Assembly (NCBI GenBank): GCA_028280105.1 | Contig: JANQML010000080.1 | Location: 1-39,434 of the forward strand | Source: Desulfobacula sp. | GTDB lineage: Bacteria; Desulfobacterota; Desulfobacteria; Desulfobacterales; Desulfobacteraceae | Length of the DNA: 39,434 nucleotides | Direction of reading: 5' to 3' | Part shown: positions 182-7,501 of the stretch, one piece after another | Numbering within the stretch: the stretch's first letter is position 1 | Layout: every line of letters begins with the position of its first letter | Made by a program: the position numbers and the translations under genes | Notes under the pieces: generated by a model | What the model saw: only the letters and a program-made list of their open reading frames with translations | What the model was told of the DNA's origin: nothing | The model's database searches: none

Positions 182-2266
182 TTATTTAGGAATGGGGAAC
201 TCCGGATCCGGGTTATAACAGATCCGGCAGCAGTTCAGACACCGCTTGGCTTCTTCATGGGCCTGATCCATGGGTAATACCAGATCCACTTCCACCATTG
301 AATCCAGGCGTTCGGAAACCGGCAGTTCCGGCATTTTCGCCCTGGGTTTCTTTACAATACCGTTGACGCTGGTAAAAATGGATTCCGGAATATGTTTGCC
401 AAGCAGCGAATTCTCAACCGGTTCAATCTTTCCTTCTTTAAGGAACAGATCAATGGAACGGGCGGCCCGCCGGCCGGAACCAATGGCGGATACAACCAGA
501 TCCGGTCCGGTTGCCGCATCCCCGGCCGTGAAAACATAGGGAATGGATGACTGCAGAATTTCAGGGTCATTATCAATGGTATTCCAACGGGTTAATTCAA
601 GATCTTTCATTCTCGGATGGGGATCCAAATCTTTATACTTTCCTTCCGGGCTCTGTCCGATGGCGGATATAACCATATCCACTTCCAGCAGGGTCTCTGA
701 TCCTTCAACCGGCTCAGGGCGTCGCCGGCCGGATGAATCCGGTTCACCCAACTCCATTTTCAGGTACTCCAGATGGGTGACCTTACCGTTGTCATCACCC
801 AGCACCCGCGTTGGTGCTGCCAGAAATACAAAGTCAATCCCCTCGTGCTCGGAAGCCACGATTTCAACCTCATTGGCCGGCATTTCGTTACGGGTTCGGC
901 GGTAGACCATATATACTTTATCCAGGCCTTTTCTCAGCAGGGTTCTGGCGCAGTCAACCGCTGTGTTCCCTCCGCCGACAACGGCCGCAGTCCGGCCCAA
1001 GGGTATATCTTCTCCCCTGGAAAGGCGCTGCAGGAAGTTGATCCCCTTATAAGCACCGTCCAAGTCTTCACCTTCAATTCCGAGGCTGTAGTCATCCCAG
1101 GCACCCACACCGAGGAAGACCGCTTTATATCCCGATGCCATCAACGAGCCGAGACCGAAATCCTCTCCAAACTTCACACCGCAAAAATCCCTGATACCCA
1201 GATCAAGAATTCCCTGGATTTCCCAGTCCAATACTTTTTTAGGGAGACGATATTCGGGGATTCCGTATCGAATGATTCCCCCCAGTTTAGGCATACAATC
1301 GAATATATCGACATCATGACCCAGCCGGCGCAGGAAGAAGGCACAGGAGAGGCCGGCAGGTCCGCCCCCGATAATTGCGACTTTGTGTCCGGTATCCGGG
1401 GCGCATTTAATGGGGAGCCTGGCACCTGAATTCATTTCATAATCAGCAGCCACCCGTTTGAGCTGGTTAATTGAAACGGCTTCATCCTCAAGCCCTCTTC
1501 TGCACATATCCTCACACGGATGCGGGCAGACGCGGCCGCAGGCAAGAGGCAGCGGATTTCTCATACGGATGGTCTGGACCGCTTCCTTGTATTTTCCTTC
1601 TCTGACCTCATTGATATACTTGGGGATGTTGATTTCAGCCGGACAGGTCTGTGAACAAGGTGCGAGGGCGGCGTCGGTCTGGTTGAAGGTCATCAGCTGT
1701 TCAGACAAGGTGTTCACCTTTATAATCCCTTTGGGGCATGCCTGCTGGCAGGCACCGCATCCCACGCACCGGGACTCATTGACCACCGGAAATCCGTTTT
1801 TACCGATCTCAACGGCATCGAACTGACAGGCTTTCACACAGTCACCTTTTCCCAGACAACCGATCCCGCAGACCCGCTTGCCGCCATACATGGCTGTCAG
1901 GGCTTTGCAGGTGGACACCCCCATATAATAAAACTTATCGCCAGCCCTGTCACCGCCTTCACACAGATTATAGGACAGCGGACTTTCGGCGGCACCGGCA
2001 TCCAGGCCCATGATTTCAGCAACAGCTTCGATTCCCTCTTTTGACGAAACAATACAAAGGGAAGGGGGCTCCTTACCGCTTACAATGGCATCTGCCGCAC
2101 CTGAACATCCGGCATAACCGCAACCGCCGCAATTTGCCCCGGCCAGGTTGTTTTCGACCATGGCAATTCGCGGGTCTTCGTACACATAAAATATTTTTGA
2201 GGAAAGGCTTAATACAACGGCGCAGGTCGCACCGATACCTAACATTAGCAATAACGCTGAGATCAT
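182..2266 (-). CDS. rnfB: RnfB fused to a GltD/NfnB-like FAD/NAD(P)H oxidoreductase
   Basis: This 694-residue protein is a two-part fusion. Residues 1-25 form the membrane anchor of RnfB. C46, C49, C54 and C71 match the RnfB Fe-S domain, and C133/137/143/147 with C167/170/173/177 form two ferredoxin-type [4Fe-4S] sites. From about residue 200 it continues as a GltD/NfnB-like unit: cysteine sets at 204/208 and 243/247/251/255, an FAD-binding GGGPAG at 300-305, an NAD(P)-binding GGGNTA at 431-436, and R456-R457 in the VYRR motif that usually reads the NADPH 2'-phosphate. The C-terminus has an extra cysteine cluster (C676, C679, C680, C683). Ordinary RnfB stops after its ferredoxin domains. It is the last gene of the operon, 169 bases after rnfA, with AAGGTG upstream of the ATG. 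Role: cytoplasmic electron-entry subunit of Rnf; NADPH as donor is inferred. Confidence 0.93.
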   Translation of the reverse strand: MISALLLMLGIGATCAVVLSLSSKIFYVYEDPRIAMVENNLAGANCGGCGYAGCSGAADAIVSGKEPPSLCIVSSKEGIEAVAEIMGLDAGAAESPLSYNLCEGGDRAGDKFYYMGVSTCKALTAMYGGKRVCGIGCLGKGDCVKACQFDAVEIGKNGFPVVNESRCVGCGACQQACPKGIIKVNTLSEQLMTFNQTDAALAPCSQTCPAEINIPKYINEVREGKYKEAVQTIRMRNPLPLACGRVCPHPCEDMCRRGLEDEAVSINQLKRVAADYEMNSGARLPIKCAPDTGHKVAIIGGGPAGLSCAFFLRRLGHDVDIFDCMPKLGGIIRYGIPEYRLPKKVLDWEIQGILDLGIRDFCGVKFGEDFGLGSLMASGYKAVFLGVGAWDDYSLGIEGEDLDGAYKGINFLQRLSRGEDIPLGRTAAVVGGGNTAVDCARTLLRKGLDKVYMVYRRTRNEMPANEVEIVASEHEGIDFVFLAAPTRVLGDDNGKVTHLEYLKMELGEPDSSGRRRPEPVEGSETLLEVDMVISAIGQSPEGKYKDLDPHPRMKDLELTRWNTIDNDPEILQSSIPYVFTAGDAATGPDLVVSAIGSGRRAARSIDLFLKEGKIEPVENSLLGKHIPESIFTSVNGIVKKPRAKMPELPVSERLDSMVEVDLVLPMDQAHEEAKRCLNCCRICYNPDPEFPIPK

Positions 2267-2435: not shown

Positions 2436-3011
2436 CTAAACCATTCCTTTAAAAGCGGTGAATGTCAGGGCAATCACACCGGCTGTAACAAGGGCGATGG
2501 ATGTATCCTCCAATGCTTTGGGTACCCTTGCCAGATTGACCCGTTCCCGGACACCTGCAAAAAGAATCAGTGCAATCGCGAAACCGACGGCATAGGAAAA
2601 GGAAGAGACAAGTGCCGGCAGAAAGGCGTATTCTTTGCTGATGTTTAAGAGACAGGCCCCCATTACCGCACAATTGGTGGTAATCAGCGGCAGAAAAATT
2701 CCCAATCCGGCATATAGACCGGGAATACTCTTTTTTAAAAACATTTCAACAAATTGGACCAGGGAGGCGATCACCAGGATAAACGAGACGGTCCGGAGAT
2801 ATTCAACATCCAAGGTTTTTAACAGATAGGTATCCAGCATCCAGGTAATCATTCCCGCCATCACCAGAACAAAGACGACCGCCATGGACATGCCCACGGC
2901 TGTTTCCATTTTTTTCGATGTCCCCATAAATGGGCATTGACCGAGAAACTGGGCAAGCAGAATATTGTTTATGAAGACACCGCTTATGAAAATTTCAAAA
3001 TAAAAATCCAC
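2436..3011 (-). CDS. rnfA: Rnf complex membrane subunit RnfA
   Basis: A 191-residue integral membrane protein with about six hydrophobic segments, the usual length and layout of RnfA/NqrE. C26 (in GQCPF) and C114 (in TNCAV) are the two conserved positions which, with those of RnfE, ligate the intramembrane Fe-S cluster of Rnf/Nqr. It lies 11 bases after rnfE on the same strand, so co-translation is likely. The protein belongs to the ion-pumping core of the ferredoxin:NAD-type oxidoreductase. The 169 bases between it and rnfB hold no gene. Confidence 0.96.
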   Translation of the reverse strand: MDFYFEIFISGVFINNILLAQFLGQCPFMGTSKKMETAVGMSMAVVFVLVMAGMITWMLDTYLLKTLDVEYLRTVSFILVIASLVQFVEMFLKKSIPGLYAGLGIFLPLITTNCAVMGACLLNISKEYAFLPALVSSFSYAVGFAIALILFAGVRERVNLARVPKALEDTSIALVTAGVIALTFTAFKGMV

Positions 3012-3022
3012 TGATTATCTCC

Positions 3023-3640
3023 TTATTTGCTTGGGATGAGATTCATACAGGCAAGCATCAGACCAAGTGCAAAAAAGGCACCCGGTGCTTCAAGCATAAC
3101 GACAAACGGGTTATATCCGGGAAAGATGTTTGTCAGGTAAAAAACCGGAAGACCTTCCCAGAAGGTTAACGTTCCCGCACCGATCAATTCGCGAACCCCG
3201 CCAAGGGCTCCCAGGGACAGGGTAAATCCGATTCCGATCCCCAGGCCGTCTGCAATGGCAAAGGGCGGTTTGTTCTTGCTGGCAAAGGCTTCTGCCCGGC
3301 CGAGAACAACACAGTTAACAACGATCAGGGGAATAAAAATACCCAGTTTGAGAAACAATTCATATGCCAAAGCCTGCATACCCAGCTCAACAATGGTAAC
3401 AAAGGTTGCAATAATAACGATGTAACAGGCGATTCTGACTTTTGACGGTATCACGTTTCGCAGCAGGGATACCAGCAGGTTGGAGCAGACAAGAACAAAG
3501 GTGGTTGCTATCCCCATCCCCAGTCCGTTTTCAACACTTTTGGTTACCGCAAGGACAGGGCAAAGTCCAAGAACAAGCCTGAAAGGAGGTAGTTCAGCCC
3601 ATAGTCCTTTTGTAAATTCTTTTGCCAAGGATTGTGCCAT
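3023..3640 (-). CDS. rnfE: Rnf complex membrane subunit RnfE
   Basis: A 205-residue polytopic membrane protein of the RnfE/NqrD family. The N-terminus carries the family stretch FRLVLGLCP with C27, and C110 sits in VVNCVVLG; both are ligands of the membrane Fe-S cluster shared with RnfA. Length is normal. It is placed between rnfG (24 bases upstream) and rnfA (11 bases downstream) in the order C-D-G-E-A-B common to bacterial rnf operons. The start codon follows a GGAG-type ribosome site. Confidence 0.96.
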   Translation of the reverse strand: MAQSLAKEFTKGLWAELPPFRLVLGLCPVLAVTKSVENGLGMGIATTFVLVCSNLLVSLLRNVIPSKVRIACYIVIIATFVTIVELGMQALAYELFLKLGIFIPLIVVNCVVLGRAEAFASKNKPPFAIADGLGIGIGFTLSLGALGGVRELIGAGTLTFWEGLPVFYLTNIFPGYNPFVVMLEAPGAFFALGLMLACMNLIPSK

Positions 3641-3664: not shown

Positions 3665-4255
3665 TTATTGTATCTGCTGTTCAATTTCAGGTTTGAGTGC
3701 CTTGTACAGATTTTGCGCTTCAATGGCGGCCAGGGTGACTGCGCGTGCGGTGATGGTGGCACCGGAAATGGAATCAATAATGCCGTTTTCACTCTTCAGG
3801 GCAAAGTTGGAATCCATGCTTAGTTCATCAAACTGGGAGACAAATTCCGTGCTATCCTTCACCTGTGAGCCCAGTCCGGGGGTTTCCGCATGGGTGGTCA
3901 CCCGGACGGCAACCACCTGGTCCGTGCTCATATTAATCCCCACCATCAGGCCGATATCTCCGCCGTACCCGCCTTTCCCTTTTGTTTCAAAGGCGATGGC
4001 ATCACTTCCGTCTTCCAGTTTGGCAGGGAAAACCTGAAGTGTCAGATCATCTTTTTCAATGTTGAATCGTTCTTTTAACGGATCATTGCTGATGGTGTCT
4101 TCAGGAAAAATTTCTGCAATGGCCGGTGCTTTCTGAAATTTCAGTATCTGTTCTTCAATCCGAATCTGAGTGCCGGATTGAACCGCAGAGAGAAGAAAAC
4201 CGGAGACGGCCGTTAAGACAGTCAGTACCATAACCATGTTAATCATTTCACGCAT
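3665..4255 (-). CDS. rnfG: Rnf complex FMN-binding subunit RnfG
   Basis: A 196-residue protein with one N-terminal membrane helix (about residues 5-25) and a periplasmic FMN-binding domain. The flavinylation motif SGATIT is present at 164-169, so the last Thr (T169) is the expected site of covalent FMN attachment by ApbE; no apbE lies in this window. TPGLG at about 125-129 is also typical of the family. Its start overlaps the end of rnfD by 8 bases, which indicates translational coupling. Confidence 0.95.
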   Translation of the reverse strand: MREMINMVMVLTVLTAVSGFLLSAVQSGTQIRIEEQILKFQKAPAIAEIFPEDTISNDPLKERFNIEKDDLTLQVFPAKLEDGSDAIAFETKGKGGYGGDIGLMVGINMSTDQVVAVRVTTHAETPGLGSQVKDSTEFVSQFDELSMDSNFALKSENGIIDSISGATITARAVTLAAIEAQNLYKALKPEIEQQIQ

Positions 4256-5213
4256 GGTTCACCCCCTTACCCAGGGCTTTGGGTCGTATATTGTCAACAA
4301 TAGGATTTACAAGGTTAAACAGCAGGATGGCCACAACCGTCCCATCCGGGAATACCCCGACATTTCTCATTAGAATAATCATCAGCCCGCAACCGAATCC
4401 GTATATTGCCATGGGGATTTTGTTCACCGGAGAAGATGAGTTTTCAGTGGCCAGGAAAAAGGCACCCAGAAGGGTATACCCGGCAAAGAGGTTGAACAGC
4501 GGGCCTGCATACTTTTCAGGGTTGATCATGTGAAACAGAAAGGCTGTGATCACAATCCCTGCGATGAATGATACCGTAATCTCCCACCGGATATATCCTT
4601 TAAGGATCAGGTAGATCCCGCCAAGGATGATTCCAAGCCCGAATGTGGCTCCGATGGCCCCGACTTCCCTGCCCATTAAAAGATCATTTAGCGAAAAGAT
4701 ATCTGCTGCACCGGCCCCCTGGAATTTAACGGCCACAAGAGGTGCCAGTTCGATAAAGTCGAAGGTATAATCTACAAGGGCGGCATCAAAATCAAAATAG
4801 ACCGGCCAAGAGAGCATCAGGATCGACATTCCGATCAGCGGGGGGCAAAACGGGTTGGCTCCGATACCACCGTAAAACATTTTACCGGCTAACACGGCAA
4901 CCATGGTACCGATAATGACCACCCACCAGGGAATGACGGCCGGCAGCATCATGCCGAAAAGCAATCCGATCACGGCGGAATCAAGATCATCAATGGACAA
5001 TGGCTTTTTAGAAATCAAATTAAATACGGTTTCCCAGAGCATGGCACTCCCAACGGCAAGGCAGAGTACTGAAAACGCCGGGATTCCAAACTGAATAACG
5101 CCGAAAACAGCTGCCGGAAGAGCAGCCAGGAGAATATTCAGATTCATTTTAAATAGACTGTCTCCATCATGCCAGAACGGGGCGTGGGAAACGGTTAATT
5201 TATGGTTATTCAT
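4248..5213 (-). CDS. rnfD: Rnf complex membrane subunit RnfD, divergent at the flavin site
   Basis: A 321-residue polytopic membrane protein of the RnfD/NqrB family, recognised by its length, helices, the early GGIGANPFCPPLIG stretch (about 115-128) and its operon position between rnfC and rnfG. In most RnfD/NqrB proteins an SGATPL-like motif carries covalent FMN. Here the matching stretch (about 147-163) reads VDYTFDFIELAPL, so the flavinylated Thr seems to be missing. The change lies inside an intact reading frame, so it is divergence and not a sequencing break. Whether FMN is still bound is unknown. Confidence 0.93.
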   Translation of the reverse strand: MNNHKLTVSHAPFWHDGDSLFKMNLNILLAALPAAVFGVIQFGIPAFSVLCLAVGSAMLWETVFNLISKKPLSIDDLDSAVIGLLFGMMLPAVIPWWVVIIGTMVAVLAGKMFYGGIGANPFCPPLIGMSILMLSWPVYFDFDAALVDYTFDFIELAPLVAVKFQGAGAADIFSLNDLLMGREVGAIGATFGLGIILGGIYLILKGYIRWEITVSFIAGIVITAFLFHMINPEKYAGPLFNLFAGYTLLGAFFLATENSSSPVNKIPMAIYGFGCGLMIILMRNVGVFPDGTVVAILLFNLVNPIVDNIRPKALGKGVNHA

Positions 5214-5229: not shown

Positions 5230-6501
5230 TTAAGCGTCGGCTCTTAGTTTTAAAAGCTCATGTTTGCCAAGCTTGATGTATTGAAACAAAGGAATCCGTG
5301 CAAGACAGGCGTAGGCACAGAGACCGCATTCAATACAGGATTCAAGATCAAACTTGTCCGCCGCCTCTTCGTAATGATCGGCTTCAAGATAACGGACCAG
5401 CAGGTTGACCGGAATGCTCGCCGGGCATATCTGGACACATCTGCCGCAGTTGACACAGGCATTGTCTGATAGTTCCGGGATAATTTCCCTGTCTTGAATG
5501 ATAACGGTATCTGTATCAGCCTGGACCGGGTGATCCTGGGTGAATGTGGTAACCCCCTGCATGGGCCCGCCGATTATGATTCTGTCCTGTTCATTGATTT
5601 GAATGCCGAACGTATCGAATATTTTTTTCAACGGGGTGCCAATGGTTGCCTTTACACAGGATACAAGGCCCTGCTTCCCGATAATGGTGACGATTTTCTC
5701 AAACCCGGCTGTCTGGGTTTCGTATGCATTTGCAAGGGAAACAACCGCCTCAGGGGAAATAAAATAGACACCCAGATCTTCGGGTGTCTGCCCGGCCGGC
5801 AGTACCATACCTAAATGATCTTTCAAAATCATGGCAGGCTGGTTTGAGGGGTAAACCATACTGGTCCGGATCACTTGAGCCATATCCGGCCCTTCGGGAT
5901 AATGCAATTGTTCCGGAATGGTCATACAGATTTTACCGGCCTTTGTTATCTGTTTGAGAATTTTTGCACCGGCATTGATTTTATCTATGTAATTTAATGC
6001 GACGTATTGACAGGTGCAGCATGACAGATCCGAGTCCGCCCCTGTAATCACAATCGTGTCGACCTTGGCACTGCTGTTTGCGAACGCCCGGAGCGGTGGT
6101 GCGCCCGGCAGATTTCTTAGAAAGCGGTCTGCACAGGCGGCATCTTCGGTCAGGTCATAGGCTGTTGAAGGCGAATCTGAAGACTGAATCTGTTCTTTTT
6201 TAATGATTAGGCTGGTGGAAACTTTGCCCATACTATCTGAATAAATATCAATGTCGGTTATTTTTCCGGATACCGGGCAAACGACATACTCAGAGCTGTC
6301 TTCGTACATTGACAGTTTTTCGCCTTTTTCAACCGCCTGATCCTTTTTGAGGAGCATTTCTTTTTTATTATCAATGGACTCATTTAATAACAAAATGAGA
6401 TCGGACGGTACAGGTATGGATTCCGGCTCTTTATAACCCGGTTCAATCAGGCTATAATGGAGCTTGGGCTTGGATAGGGTGAAAAAAGATCGTTTAATCA
6501 T
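5230..6501 (-). CDS. rnfC: RnfC-type subunit lacking the NADH/FMN glycine loop
   Basis: A 423-residue peripheral subunit with the RnfC N-terminal barrel, a central domain, and two C-terminal [4Fe-4S] motifs (C349/352/355/359 and C389/392/395/399). Canonical RnfC has a GLGGAGFPT loop followed by GAECEP, which form the NADH and FMN pocket. In this protein the corresponding stretch (about 125-160) is short, has no GGAGFP, and reads GADSDLS in place of GAECEP. The Fe-S relay is therefore kept but NADH binding looks lost. The gene is first of the rnfCDGEAB set, 67 bases after the cytochrome gene. The subunit may serve only as an Fe-S scaffold. Confidence 0.92.
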   Translation of the reverse strand: MIKRSFFTLSKPKLHYSLIEPGYKEPESIPVPSDLILLLNESIDNKKEMLLKKDQAVEKGEKLSMYEDSSEYVVCPVSGKITDIDIYSDSMGKVSTSLIIKKEQIQSSDSPSTAYDLTEDAACADRFLRNLPGAPPLRAFANSSAKVDTIVITGADSDLSCCTCQYVALNYIDKINAGAKILKQITKAGKICMTIPEQLHYPEGPDMAQVIRTSMVYPSNQPAMILKDHLGMVLPAGQTPEDLGVYFISPEAVVSLANAYETQTAGFEKIVTIIGKQGLVSCVKATIGTPLKKIFDTFGIQINEQDRIIIGGPMQGVTTFTQDHPVQADTDTVIIQDREIIPELSDNACVNCGRCVQICPASIPVNLLVRYLEADHYEEAADKFDLESCIECGLCAYACLARIPLFQYIKLGKHELLKLRADA

Positions 6502-6568: not shown

Positions 6569-6934
6569 CTATAGGGAATGACACGAATTACATTCTACCG
6601 GACCTGCACCAATATCTTCATGGCATCCCATGCACGTCTGGTGCATTGAATCAGCTCTTGACAGCATGTCCTCATCACCGGTTTCTTCATGACACTCGCT
6701 GCAATTGTAGGATTCATCATATTCGAGGTTATGATGGCAGTCCAGGCAATCCTCCGTGTAATCGCCCGTGTGTATGTAATGGGTGAATAGGACTTTACCC
6801 GCTTTGTTTTGAAACATGATTCGCACTGGATTTTCAGATGCAGGGGGAGTAAAAGAGGCATAGCAAATAATACCGGTAACCATAGAGATGACCATAATTA
6901 ATATTGCTACTTTTAGGTCTCGCTTTGATGACAT
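6569..6934 (-). CDS. Membrane-anchored tetrahaem cytochrome c (c3-like) of the rnf operon
   Basis: A 121-residue protein with an N-terminal hydrophobic segment (about 9-27) that acts as anchor or signal. It carries four CXXCH haem-c sites at 63-67, 78-82, 101-105 and 115-119. Extra histidines (H52, H55, H68, H98) are candidate distal ligands, as in class III cytochromes. It is co-directional with and just upstream of rnfC. Multihaem cytochromes encoded beside rnf are known from sulfate reducers and Methanosarcina, where they link Rnf to other electron carriers on the outer face of the membrane. The ATG is preceded by GAGAG. Confidence 0.93.
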   Translation of the reverse strand: MSSKRDLKVAILIMVISMVTGIICYASFTPPASENPVRIMFQNKAGKVLFTHYIHTGDYTEDCLDCHHNLEYDESYNCSECHEETGDEDMLSRADSMHQTCMGCHEDIGAGPVECNSCHSL

Positions 6935-7039: not shown

Positions 7040-7501
7040 TTAGAGCGTGGAACAACTGTCTGGAATGACATGTGATCTTTTTCTGACAAGGAAGGGTTTA
7101 TAAGCATTGTTTTTTGATAAGCCAGCCTGTTTTTTTCGAATGAAAAAAAAGGCAAGCCCGAAAAAAGAAAACCCGATAGACATGGATAAAAGAGACGGAT
7201 TTATTTGTAAAAACGGGGCCAGGCCGTTGCCGATGACTGCCCCGATGATCAACAGGATAATGGGGAACACGTAAAGTAAAAATGTTAAATAGAGCATGGG
7301 CTTTGTTTCAAGTCCGATGACCACATGATCCCCCTTTTGGACCCTTAAAGTGTTCTTTACGGTCACGGTATGCTCTTTCATGTTTTTTGCAGTTCCGCAA
7401 CTGTTTTTTGTCGAGCAGGATTCGCAGGCACCGGACCGGGTGGTTTTAACCCATGCCGTTGTCGGATCGACACGGGTAACAATTCCGTTTTCAGTAATCA
7501 T
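7040..7501 (-). CDS. RseC/MucC-family membrane protein (SoxR-reducing-system type)
   Basis: A 153-residue protein with the RseC layout: an N-terminal beta-rich part with cysteines C26, C29 and C35, then two transmembrane helices (about 70-90 and 100-120) and a basic tail. In E. coli rseC lies elsewhere, but RsxABCDGE and RseC act together to keep SoxR reduced, and RseC-like genes often accompany rnf operons. Its place just upstream of the cytochrome and rnfC fits a role in assembly or redox tuning of this complex; that role is inferred. No strong ribosome site precedes the ATG. Confidence 0.85.
   Translation of the reverse strand: MITENGIVTRVDPTTAWVKTTRSGACESCSTKNSCGTAKNMKEHTVTVKNTLRVQKGDHVVIGLETKPMLYLTFLLYVFPIILLIIGAVIGNGLAPFLQINPSLLSMSIGFSFFGLAFFFIRKKQAGLSKNNAYKPFLVRKRSHVIPDSCSTL

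Follow-up and report, generated by a model that had tools for sequence, protein, structure and literature searches.

The 39,434-nt stretch of DNA analysed here (contig JANQML010000080.1 of assembly GCA_028280105.1, from the sulfate reducer Desulfobacula sp.; hereafter the window) carries on its minus strand a run of seven genes, cytochrome c-rnfC-D-G-E-A-rnfB::gltD, the last of which encodes an RnfB subunit fused to a GltD/NfnB-like oxidoreductase. Judging from its sequence, this complex could take up electrons from NAD(P)H at RnfB and release them to cytochrome c, a reading to which we give about an even chance of being right. The changes that bear most on the mechanism are those in RnfC and RnfD, which were absent from the preliminary description of the window. 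With the flavin site of RnfD and the nucleotide site of RnfC lost, and with RnfB, RnfA/E and RnfG intact, the open question of the RnfC partner becomes a definite prediction, NADPH in and cytochrome c out.

The preliminary description had treated the fusion as new, but the arrangement is already described as the Desulfobacula toluolica-type (Tol2-type) Rnf, or Rnf2 (PMC5109826, PMC11887813). The first of these reports places NAD+-binding sites in RnfB and states that the RnfC partner "has to be identified" (PMC5109826); the second names Rnf2, assigns it to the core genome of the Desulfobacteraceae, finds it constitutively formed and links the NADH, ferredoxin and NADP pools through Rnf2 and Nfn (PMC11887813). 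The passages of the two reports cited here make no mention of the loss of the flavin mononucleotide (FMN) site in RnfD, the permuted C-terminus or the Lys270 type. What is added here is a sharper, testable mechanism, together with the evidence from the C-terminus, Lys270, RnfC and RnfD.

Changes in RnfC, RnfD and the cytochrome gene

Loci were taken around fusion matches or from the window's own genome (40) and around rnfC matches picked from the strong and the weak ends (80), and the 87 rnfC genes lying beside an rnfD were scored for the motif GxGGAxFP, with the window scored in addition. The motif was found in none of the 36 RnfC from fusion operons (35 loci and the window), as against 28 of the 35 from operons with a plain rnfB, and was intact in one of the 17 rnfC with no rnfB found on the same strand. 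A separately gathered set gave the same picture, with the motif in 0/19 fusion-linked rnfC, three of which were incomplete. The residues of this motif are presumably those of the FMN/NADH site of the 51K subunit of complex I. Twelve canonical RnfC had GGA.FP, ECEP and YPQG.EK as invariant sequences, and the same residues were not invariant in 17 fusion-type RnfC; the canonical site (GxGGAxFP, ECEP, YPQG) is missing from the window RnfC.

As reported for Rnf2, the window RnfC is without the NADH-oxidoreductase (51K) and SLBB domains, matching neither PF01512 nor an SLBB family at E 0.01. At the same threshold, PF01512 matched 12/17 fusion-type and 12/12 canonical RnfC, and the SLBB family PF10531 matched 3/17 and 11/12, respectively; the published wording that RnfC "lacks the domains" is therefore softened for the type as a whole, given its 12 matches to PF01512. 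The model of the window RnfC (predicted local distance difference test, pLDDT, 87.2) had a template-modelling (TM) score of 0.81 to 8ahx_C and 9eri_C, with NqrA chains among its Foldseek neighbours. We also considered whether every motif-less RnfC accompanies a fusion, which is ruled out by the absence of the motif from 7/35 plain-RnfB RnfC. Four operons with plain RnfB and motif-less RnfC (L109, L137, L147 and L183) retain the RnfD Thr and occupy a separate place on the RnfA/RnfE tree. Three others (L176, L177 and L178) have lost both the RnfC and the RnfD sites, L177 having a four-heme cytochrome, and are candidates for a ferredoxin:cytochrome Rnf without the GltD module.

In Acetobacterium woodii, electrons are described as passing from RnfB to the RnfA/E cluster, the FMN on RnfG T185, the FMN on RnfD T156, riboflavin and RnfC, Na+ pumping being assigned to RnfA/E and only electron transfer to RnfD (PMC11889175); for the RnfD of Clostridium tetanomorphum, the residues given are Thr153 and Glu185 (PMC9588780). 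The column of RnfD T156 holds Thr in 28/28 canonical operons but in only five of 55 fusion operons (lost in 50), and the Glu column holds Glu in 28/28 and 2/55, respectively; the window RnfD lacks the covalent FMN Thr. For the riboflavin residues, the Asp is present in 28/28 canonical and 11/55 fusion operons (the other 44 have Glu), and the Asn in 28/28 and 43/55. The FMN Thr of RnfG occurs in 21/21 canonical and 53/55 fusion operons (Ser in two), and the four cluster Cys of RnfA/E in 55/55 fusion operons, both features being present in the window. Among motif-less operons without a linked fusion, the RnfD Thr is found in four of the seven with plain rnfB and in two of the 16 with no rnfB found.

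Cytochrome genes were sought as genes of <320 aa with at least three CxxCH, on the same strand as rnfD and within 4.5 kb of it (the window's entry was set by hand). Such a multiheme cytochrome gene was near rnfD in 40/55 fusion operons compared with 0/28 canonical ones, and all five fusion operons retaining the RnfD Thr are without it. As in Rnf2, the window has the cytochrome gene within the cluster, and the arrangement is present across the Desulfobacteraceae. Since the flavin site of RnfG is retained while the flavin site of RnfD and the nucleotide site of RnfC are lost, the simplest exit for the electrons would be the periplasmic cytochrome.

The RnfB::GltD protein

The fusion lies where the preliminary description had placed it (182-2266), on the minus strand; the plus-strand frame over this span contains stops. 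Its 694 aa and two Rossmann folds agree with the RnfB of ca. 700 aa with nucleotide-binding sites of Rnf2, and the motifs GGGPAG and GGGNTA, the R456-R457 pair and cysteines C676, C679, C680 and C683 were all found at the positions first noted. The structural modelling then proposed (AlphaFold2 with 47 sequences) gave a mean pLDDT of 89.1 and a predicted TM score of 0.86, with chains of NfnABC and StnABC (9bov_A, 9n5u_A and 8oh5_C) as top Foldseek matches. Conservation was assessed in 87 full-length fusions, including that of the window and at least three pairs of rows that are the same genome twice or identical (L047/L227, L182/L205 and L184/L200). Their division into clade I (n = 46, >43 %) and clade II (n = 41, ≤40 %) is based on identity to the window rather than on a tree.

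The RnfB part begins with a helix (residues 2–25 of the model), followed by a 4-Cys FeS domain (ligands C46, C49, C54 and C71; PF04060 at 41–72) and a ferredoxin domain with eight Cys within 133–177 (Fer4-type matches inside 136–183), and all 12 Cys are present in 87/87 fusions. Residues 1–195 match the solved RnfB chains 7zc6_B (E 8.8e-46) and 9eri_B (E 1.7e-42), and the fusion scores narrowly below the cut-off of the NCBIfam rnfB model TIGR01944 (65.8 vs 68.7). Residues 196–694 match NfnB, StnC and related chains, with PF14691 at 202–280 and PF07992 at 295–598.

In NADH-type sites, strand 2 of the second Rossmann fold is generally followed by an acidic end. In the alignment, the fusion has there a YRR motif in common with StnC, which binds NADPH, and with NfnL, whose structure entry title gives NADP(H) as bound; because of this shared motif, NADPH appears a better candidate than NADH, and the enzyme built into RnfB probably takes its electrons from NADPH. 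By its flavin adenine dinucleotide (FAD) and NAD(P) motifs, cluster Cys and YRR, the module may be placed with the NADPH-reacting GltD/StnC modules. Lys270 is retained in 86/87 fusions, and the corresponding residue is Glu in 4ylf_B and 5jca_L; the Glu found at the FAD-proximal cluster of bifurcating NfnB/NfnL is missing from the window RnfB. Arg340, the counterpart of NfnB R201 and StnC R239 (position counted by hand), is found in 87/87 fusions, and both clades retain the cysteines examined, except the variable C243 and C680. In StnC, K170 is a ligand of the FAD-proximal cluster and its authors concluded that the FAD is non-bifurcating (PMC10482914). With Lys270 as in StnC, and Glu in bifurcating NfnB, the GltD module is likelier to act as a plain wire from NADPH than as a bifurcator. 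The preliminary interpretation thus stands in part: that NADPH could feed Rnf directly is supported, as far as motifs can tell, by the presence of both FAD and NAD(P) motifs on RnfB itself and by the loss of the RnfC NADH motif in every fusion operon examined, and the alternative of a flavin-based bifurcation step is disfavoured by Lys270.

The C-terminal cysteines, previously left unexplained, can now be accounted for. Judged by alignments and profile matches, they belong to the N-terminal segment of NfnB/GltD, which has here been relocated to the C-terminal end, as it has in StnC and NfnA. Residues 640–679 align with 6–45 of Pyrococcus furiosus NfnL (5jca_L; weak, 7.4 bits, independent E-value, i-E, 16) and residues 643–679 with 6–42 of 4ylf_B (weak, 4.6 bits, i-E 110); both alignments end at RCLxC, and the remaining module aligns from residue 45–49 of these chains. 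A profile of residues 640–684 from the fusion set matched the N-terminus of three of five stand-alone GltD-like open reading frames (ORFs), at 24–62, 9–47 and 62–100 (i-E 1.6e-12 to 5.1e-11, at Z = 1000), and 0/50 shuffled ORFs. The segment is C-terminal inside a single alignment in 9bov_A and StnC, and in NfnA appears as a weak second alignment. In the fusion, the C-terminal cysteines would bind a cluster.

Distribution and evolutionary history

A match of at least 595 residues across the junction, with at least 57 % identity, was found in 71 of 97 genomes (own included; counted by hand), four of which (G058, G084, G089 and G093) were flagged with one or two internal stops; selenocysteine was considered for these, and some of them are perhaps terminal. 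These junction-spanning matches exclude chance or an assembly error near residue ~200, the objection foreseen in the preliminary description. Five genomes gave partial matches only, at 76–80 % identity (G002, G012, G024, G043 and G048), four of them beginning at the first bases of a contig. The search across the Desulfobacterota that had been suggested showed the fusion to be widespread also among 297 genomes drawn evenly from the phylum (own included), with 27 matching at E ≤1e-180; among these, one (G231) matches from residue 29 and three (G169, G257 and G281) only from about residue 100. The latter three have open frames of ~600 aa, 49–51 % identical to residues ~100–686 and without the first part of RnfB, possibly a soluble, split version of the module. 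Among the matches listed, named genomes and metagenome-assembled genomes (MAGs) with the fusion include Desulfobacula sp., Desulfosarcina alkanivorans, Desulfopila aestuarii and Desulfocarbo indianensis, as well as one Pseudodesulfovibrio MAG and one Candidatus Aminicenantes MAG. Both Rnf types can occur together: in the genome of Desulfococcus multivorans, rnf1 lies at 3.09 Mbp and rnf2 lies at 3.11 Mbp (PMC5109826), in agreement with which genome G067 carries an rnfC of canonical type at 3.100 Mb and, at 3.114–3.120 Mb, a fusion operon. In 11 genomes chosen for a strong canonical rnfC, no match among those listed starts before residue 159 of the fusion; for one of them (G139), which also has a motif-less rnfC (L145), the best fusion match (E 2.2e-76) has its start outside the matches listed.

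By the linkage rule, 43 clade I and 12 clade II fusions lie beside rnfA, and three and 29, respectively, do not. Six clade I fusions (L268–L273; genomes G060, G132, G301, G344, G133 and G325) are unlinked to the rnfCDGEA cluster of their own genome, and the motif-less rnfC operons of these genomes have no neighbouring rnfB. In G172 the motif-less operon and the fusion are on two separate contigs; in G303 and G080, with a motif-less operon and no neighbouring rnfB, the fusion search found no full-length fusion. Genome G346 has a fusion with a large internal gap plus an unlinked clade II-like fusion, and at L136 (12884–13400) the fusion gene is missing residues ~80–603 between two matching pieces, either by deletion or by an assembly fault.

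Stand-alone clade II copies were inspected at 20 loci (L038–L057 without L042, plus L140), 16 of which lie beside NuoE-NuoF (seven) or a formate dehydrogenase in two ORFs (nine), with neither in the stretch fetched for the other four. In the two cases tried, the two-ORF formate dehydrogenase was open if TGA was read as selenocysteine. The window's genome itself has pieces of a second, clade I-like RnfB::GltD, 64–69 % identical, at the ends of two contigs (L058, 2940–4275, and L059, 9036–9767), with NuoE, NuoF and a two-ORF formate dehydrogenase gene next to the L059 piece.

A quick tree from concatenated RnfA and RnfE sequences (98 rows) had a branch with maximal support (SH-aLRT, the Shimodaira–Hasegawa-like approximate likelihood ratio test, 100) with all 55 fusion rows, 10 rnfB-less rows and L176 and L178 on one side, the last two being plain-RnfB operons with the RnfC and RnfD sites both lost; all 27 canonical rows were outside this group. 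On a careful tree, in which loss was scored for three rows whose rnfC was truncated or absent, the changes needed were two for the RnfC loss, four for the loss of the RnfD Thr and six (genome level) or nine (linked) for the fusion. This suggests that the RnfC and RnfD sites were lost first, that the fusion was gained within that group and that the NAD(P) site was lost again in clade II.

Gene organization

The features of the operon are collected in Table 1. Scans of its seven genes with Pfam and NCBIfam found neither an NfnA/NfnS-like partner nor an NqrF gene (2Fe-2S plus FNR-type FAD/NADH domains). The window's genome has a single rnfC match and an nqrA-like gene below the family cut-off, so that NADH may be served there by Nqr. 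Upstream of the operon there is an RseC-family gene (7040–7501), which also adjoins a number of other fusion operons and orphan copies, including nine of the 20 stand-alone clade II loci.

Table 1. Features of the rnfB::gltD operon, with positions in the window
Feature	Position	Strand	Remarks
rnfB::gltD fusion gene	182..2266	-	694-aa ORF; Pfam/NCBIfam scans, genome searches
RnfB module, residues 1-195	1682..2266	-	N-terminal helix, 4-Cys FeS domain and one 2[4Fe-4S] ferredoxin domain
GltD/NfnB/StnC-like module, residues 196-694	182..1681	-	Rossmann folds for FAD and NAD(P)H; closest solved chains 9bov_A, 9n5u_A, 8oh5_C
Lys270	1457..1459	-	Counterpart of StnC K170; Glu in NfnB/NfnL; position hand-counted on alignment
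FAD-fold motif GGGPAG, residues 300-305	1352..1369	-	G300, G302 and G305 in 87/87 fusions
NAD(P)-fold motif GGGNTA, residues 431-436	959..976	-	G431/G433/N434 pattern in clade I 45/46, clade II 5/41
R456-R457 (YRRTRNEMPAN)	896..901	-	Expected contact of the NADPH 2'-phosphate; RR in clade I 44/46, clade II 1/41
Circularly permuted cluster-binding segment, residues 640-679	230..349	-	Ends in RCLNC; homologous to NfnL/GltD N-terminus
C-terminal cysteine cluster CLNCCRIC, residues 676-683	218..241	-	C676, C679 and C683 in 87/87; C680 in 34/87
rnfA	2436..3011	-	TIGR01943 above cut-off; two cluster Cys retained
rnfE	3023..3640	-	TIGR01948 above cut-off; two cluster Cys retained
rnfG	3665..4255	-	NF045876 and TIGR01947 above cut-off; covalent-FMN motif SGAT
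RnfG SGAT, FMN attachment Thr retained	3755..3766	-	
rnfD	4248..5213	-	TIGR01946 above cut-off; covalent-FMN Thr lost
RnfD segment FIELAPL (canonical: (S/T)xATPL)	4737..4757	-	FMN-binding Thr (T156 in A. woodii) gone
rnfC	5230..6501	-	TIGR01945 169.8 bits, below cut-off of 245.95; fold and 8-Cys di-cluster domain retained, FMN/NADH motifs lost
RnfC segment LRNLPGAPPLRAF, at the place of canonical GxGGAxFPTxVK	6082..6120	-	
Tetraheme class III cytochrome c, first operon gene	6569..6934	-	Four CxxCH, hydrophobic N-terminus; PF02085 E 3.7e-12; NF045722 (TmcA-like) below cut-off

Proposed electron path and alternatives

In the scheme that we favour, the FAD in the GltD-like part of RnfB would be the site of reaction for NADPH (or, in reverse, NADP+). 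Single electrons would then travel by way of the cluster linked to Lys270 and a second cluster, for which the C-terminal cysteines probably provide some of the ligands, to the ferredoxin clusters of RnfB. From there they would reach the RnfA/E cluster, where ions would be pumped, as is predicted from the retained RnfA/E, and the FMN covalently bound to RnfG. The return limb of canonical Rnf, from the FMN of RnfD through RnfC to NAD+, appears largely dismantled, and the tetraheme cytochrome c of the periplasm would be the most likely electron acceptor in the window's lineage. RnfB may also accept electrons from reduced ferredoxin. No ions would be pumped if RnfB were the site of reaction for both ferredoxin and NADP and the electrons went no further, so that the other partner would have to lie beyond RnfA/E. 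The nucleotide site would thus have changed ends along the electron path, with a polarity that parallels that of Nqr.

Several observations weigh against this scheme. RnfC retains its fold in the model and the 8-Cys pattern in 52/52 fusion operons, and a dead subunit would not be expected to retain clusters; most fusion-type RnfC still match the FMN-fold family PF01512, and the motif is also missing from some plain-RnfB operons. The riboflavin Asn persists in most fusion-operon RnfD, and the loss of Thr does not prove that RnfD is flavin-free. No cytochrome gene is nearby in 15/55 fusion operons (truncated in some cases at a contig end), and the RnfD Thr is gone from 10 of the 15 as well. Clade II fusions are mostly without the NAD(P) motif, yet retain the cluster ligands. 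Finally, the co-occurrence of the traits is strict, but because they arose in few events it is not a statistical proof, and an independent-pairs test had too few informative pairs to have any power.

The retained clusters of RnfC would suit an ion-pumping ferredoxin:NADP+ oxidoreductase in which the roles are swapped, NADP reacting at RnfB, ferredoxin docking on the nucleotide-free di-cluster domain of RnfC and the whole U-shaped path being used. A separate ferredoxin site would be sensible, since a subunit reacting with both ferredoxin and NADP would let electrons short-circuit and nothing would be pumped, and the five cytochrome-less fusion operons that retain the RnfD FMN Thr point the same way. 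However, with this Thr lost in 50 and the Glu in 53 of the 55 fusion operons, the limb from RnfG through RnfD to RnfC seems to be interrupted in the lineage of the window, and 40 of these operons are accompanied by cytochrome genes; we consider the swap rather unlikely. It is decidedly unlikely, in our estimate, that RnfB is a junction fed by ferredoxin or NADPH according to supply, both for the cytochrome, with GltD as an optional side entry. The full retention of the 12 Cys of the RnfB part in 87/87 fusions would fit such a junction, as would the 12 clade II operons that retain the fused module with the NAD(P) motif mostly lost, as if nucleotide entry were dispensable, but clade I retains the NADP motifs in 44–45 of 46 fusions and the site is probably under selection there.

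Bifurcation at the GltD FAD, in which, as in NfnAB, the electrons of NADPH would go partly to ferredoxin and partly to the membrane limb, draws on the NfnB-like fold and FAD site and the invariant Arg340. We hold it to be very unlikely, given a Lys in place of the NfnB Glu in 86/87 fusions, as in StnC with its non-bifurcating FAD (PMC10482914), and the absence of an NfnA/NfnS-like partner among the seven operon genes. The published view would have Rnf2 still couple ferredoxin with NAD(H), the NAD site being simply on RnfB, in keeping with the reported NAD+-binding sites (PMC5109826) and linked pools (PMC11887813); it seems extremely improbable to us with a YRR like that of the NADPH-binding StnC and NfnL, instead of the acidic NADH type, after strand 2 of the second Rossmann fold.

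More broadly, and quite tentatively, the Rnf of the Desulfobacterota might be a modular chassis that retains its pumping half (from RnfB via RnfA/E to RnfG), has given up its NAD half (the RnfD flavin and the RnfC site) and takes swappable RnfB::GltD subunits, each for a different cytoplasmic donor. With equal reserve, the operon copies might then bring in NADPH and the stand-alone clade II copies feed the same membrane core from NADH or formate. If NADPH does enter at RnfB and cytochrome c takes the electrons, this would be a second example of an Rnf-type pump reshaped towards Nqr, and would offer a natural way of testing whether RnfA/E pumps, as has been claimed.

Comparison with known systems

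The window has the traits of the Tol2-type Rnf/Rnf2 of D. toluolica Tol2 and D. multivorans, with a nucleotide-binding RnfB of ~700 aa and an RnfC without an NADH site; no difference from this type was found, and a cytochrome gene inside the cluster is shared with the Rnf2 of D. multivorans. With the canonical Rnf of A. woodii, C. tetanomorphum and Azotobacter vinelandii it shares RnfA, E and G, the N-terminal part of RnfB and the fold of RnfC, but it differs in the absence of the RnfC FMN/NADH motif and of the FMN Thr and Glu of RnfD, and in having GltD in place of the later ferredoxin part of RnfB.

In Nqr, NADH enters at NqrF, and NqrA, the homologue of RnfC, is not known to have an NADH site. 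The proposed entry of nucleotide at the RnfB-end subunit would resemble that of Na+-Nqr, and the window RnfC is structurally near NqrA chains; unlike in Na+-Nqr, however, the module is GltD-like and not FNR-like, the RnfD FMN Thr is lost, the operon has no NqrF and a cytochrome stands in place of a known quinone site. The 2025 review of Rnf and Nqr contains, in a text search, no word starting with "desulf" (PMC12174285). The C-terminal RCLxC segment, the Lys at the ligand position and YRR are common to StnC of StnABC (8oh5) and NfnA of NfnABC (9bov, 9n5u), but the GltD module is joined here to a membrane RnfB and not, as in StnC, to NuoG/FdhF parts (PMC10482914). The Rnf of Methanosarcina acetivorans is reported to make no use of NAD(P), and its RnfB of 30.5 kDa is too small for a GltD module, unlike that of the window; its electrons exit to a multiheme cytochrome c, as we propose for the window (PMC4023990).

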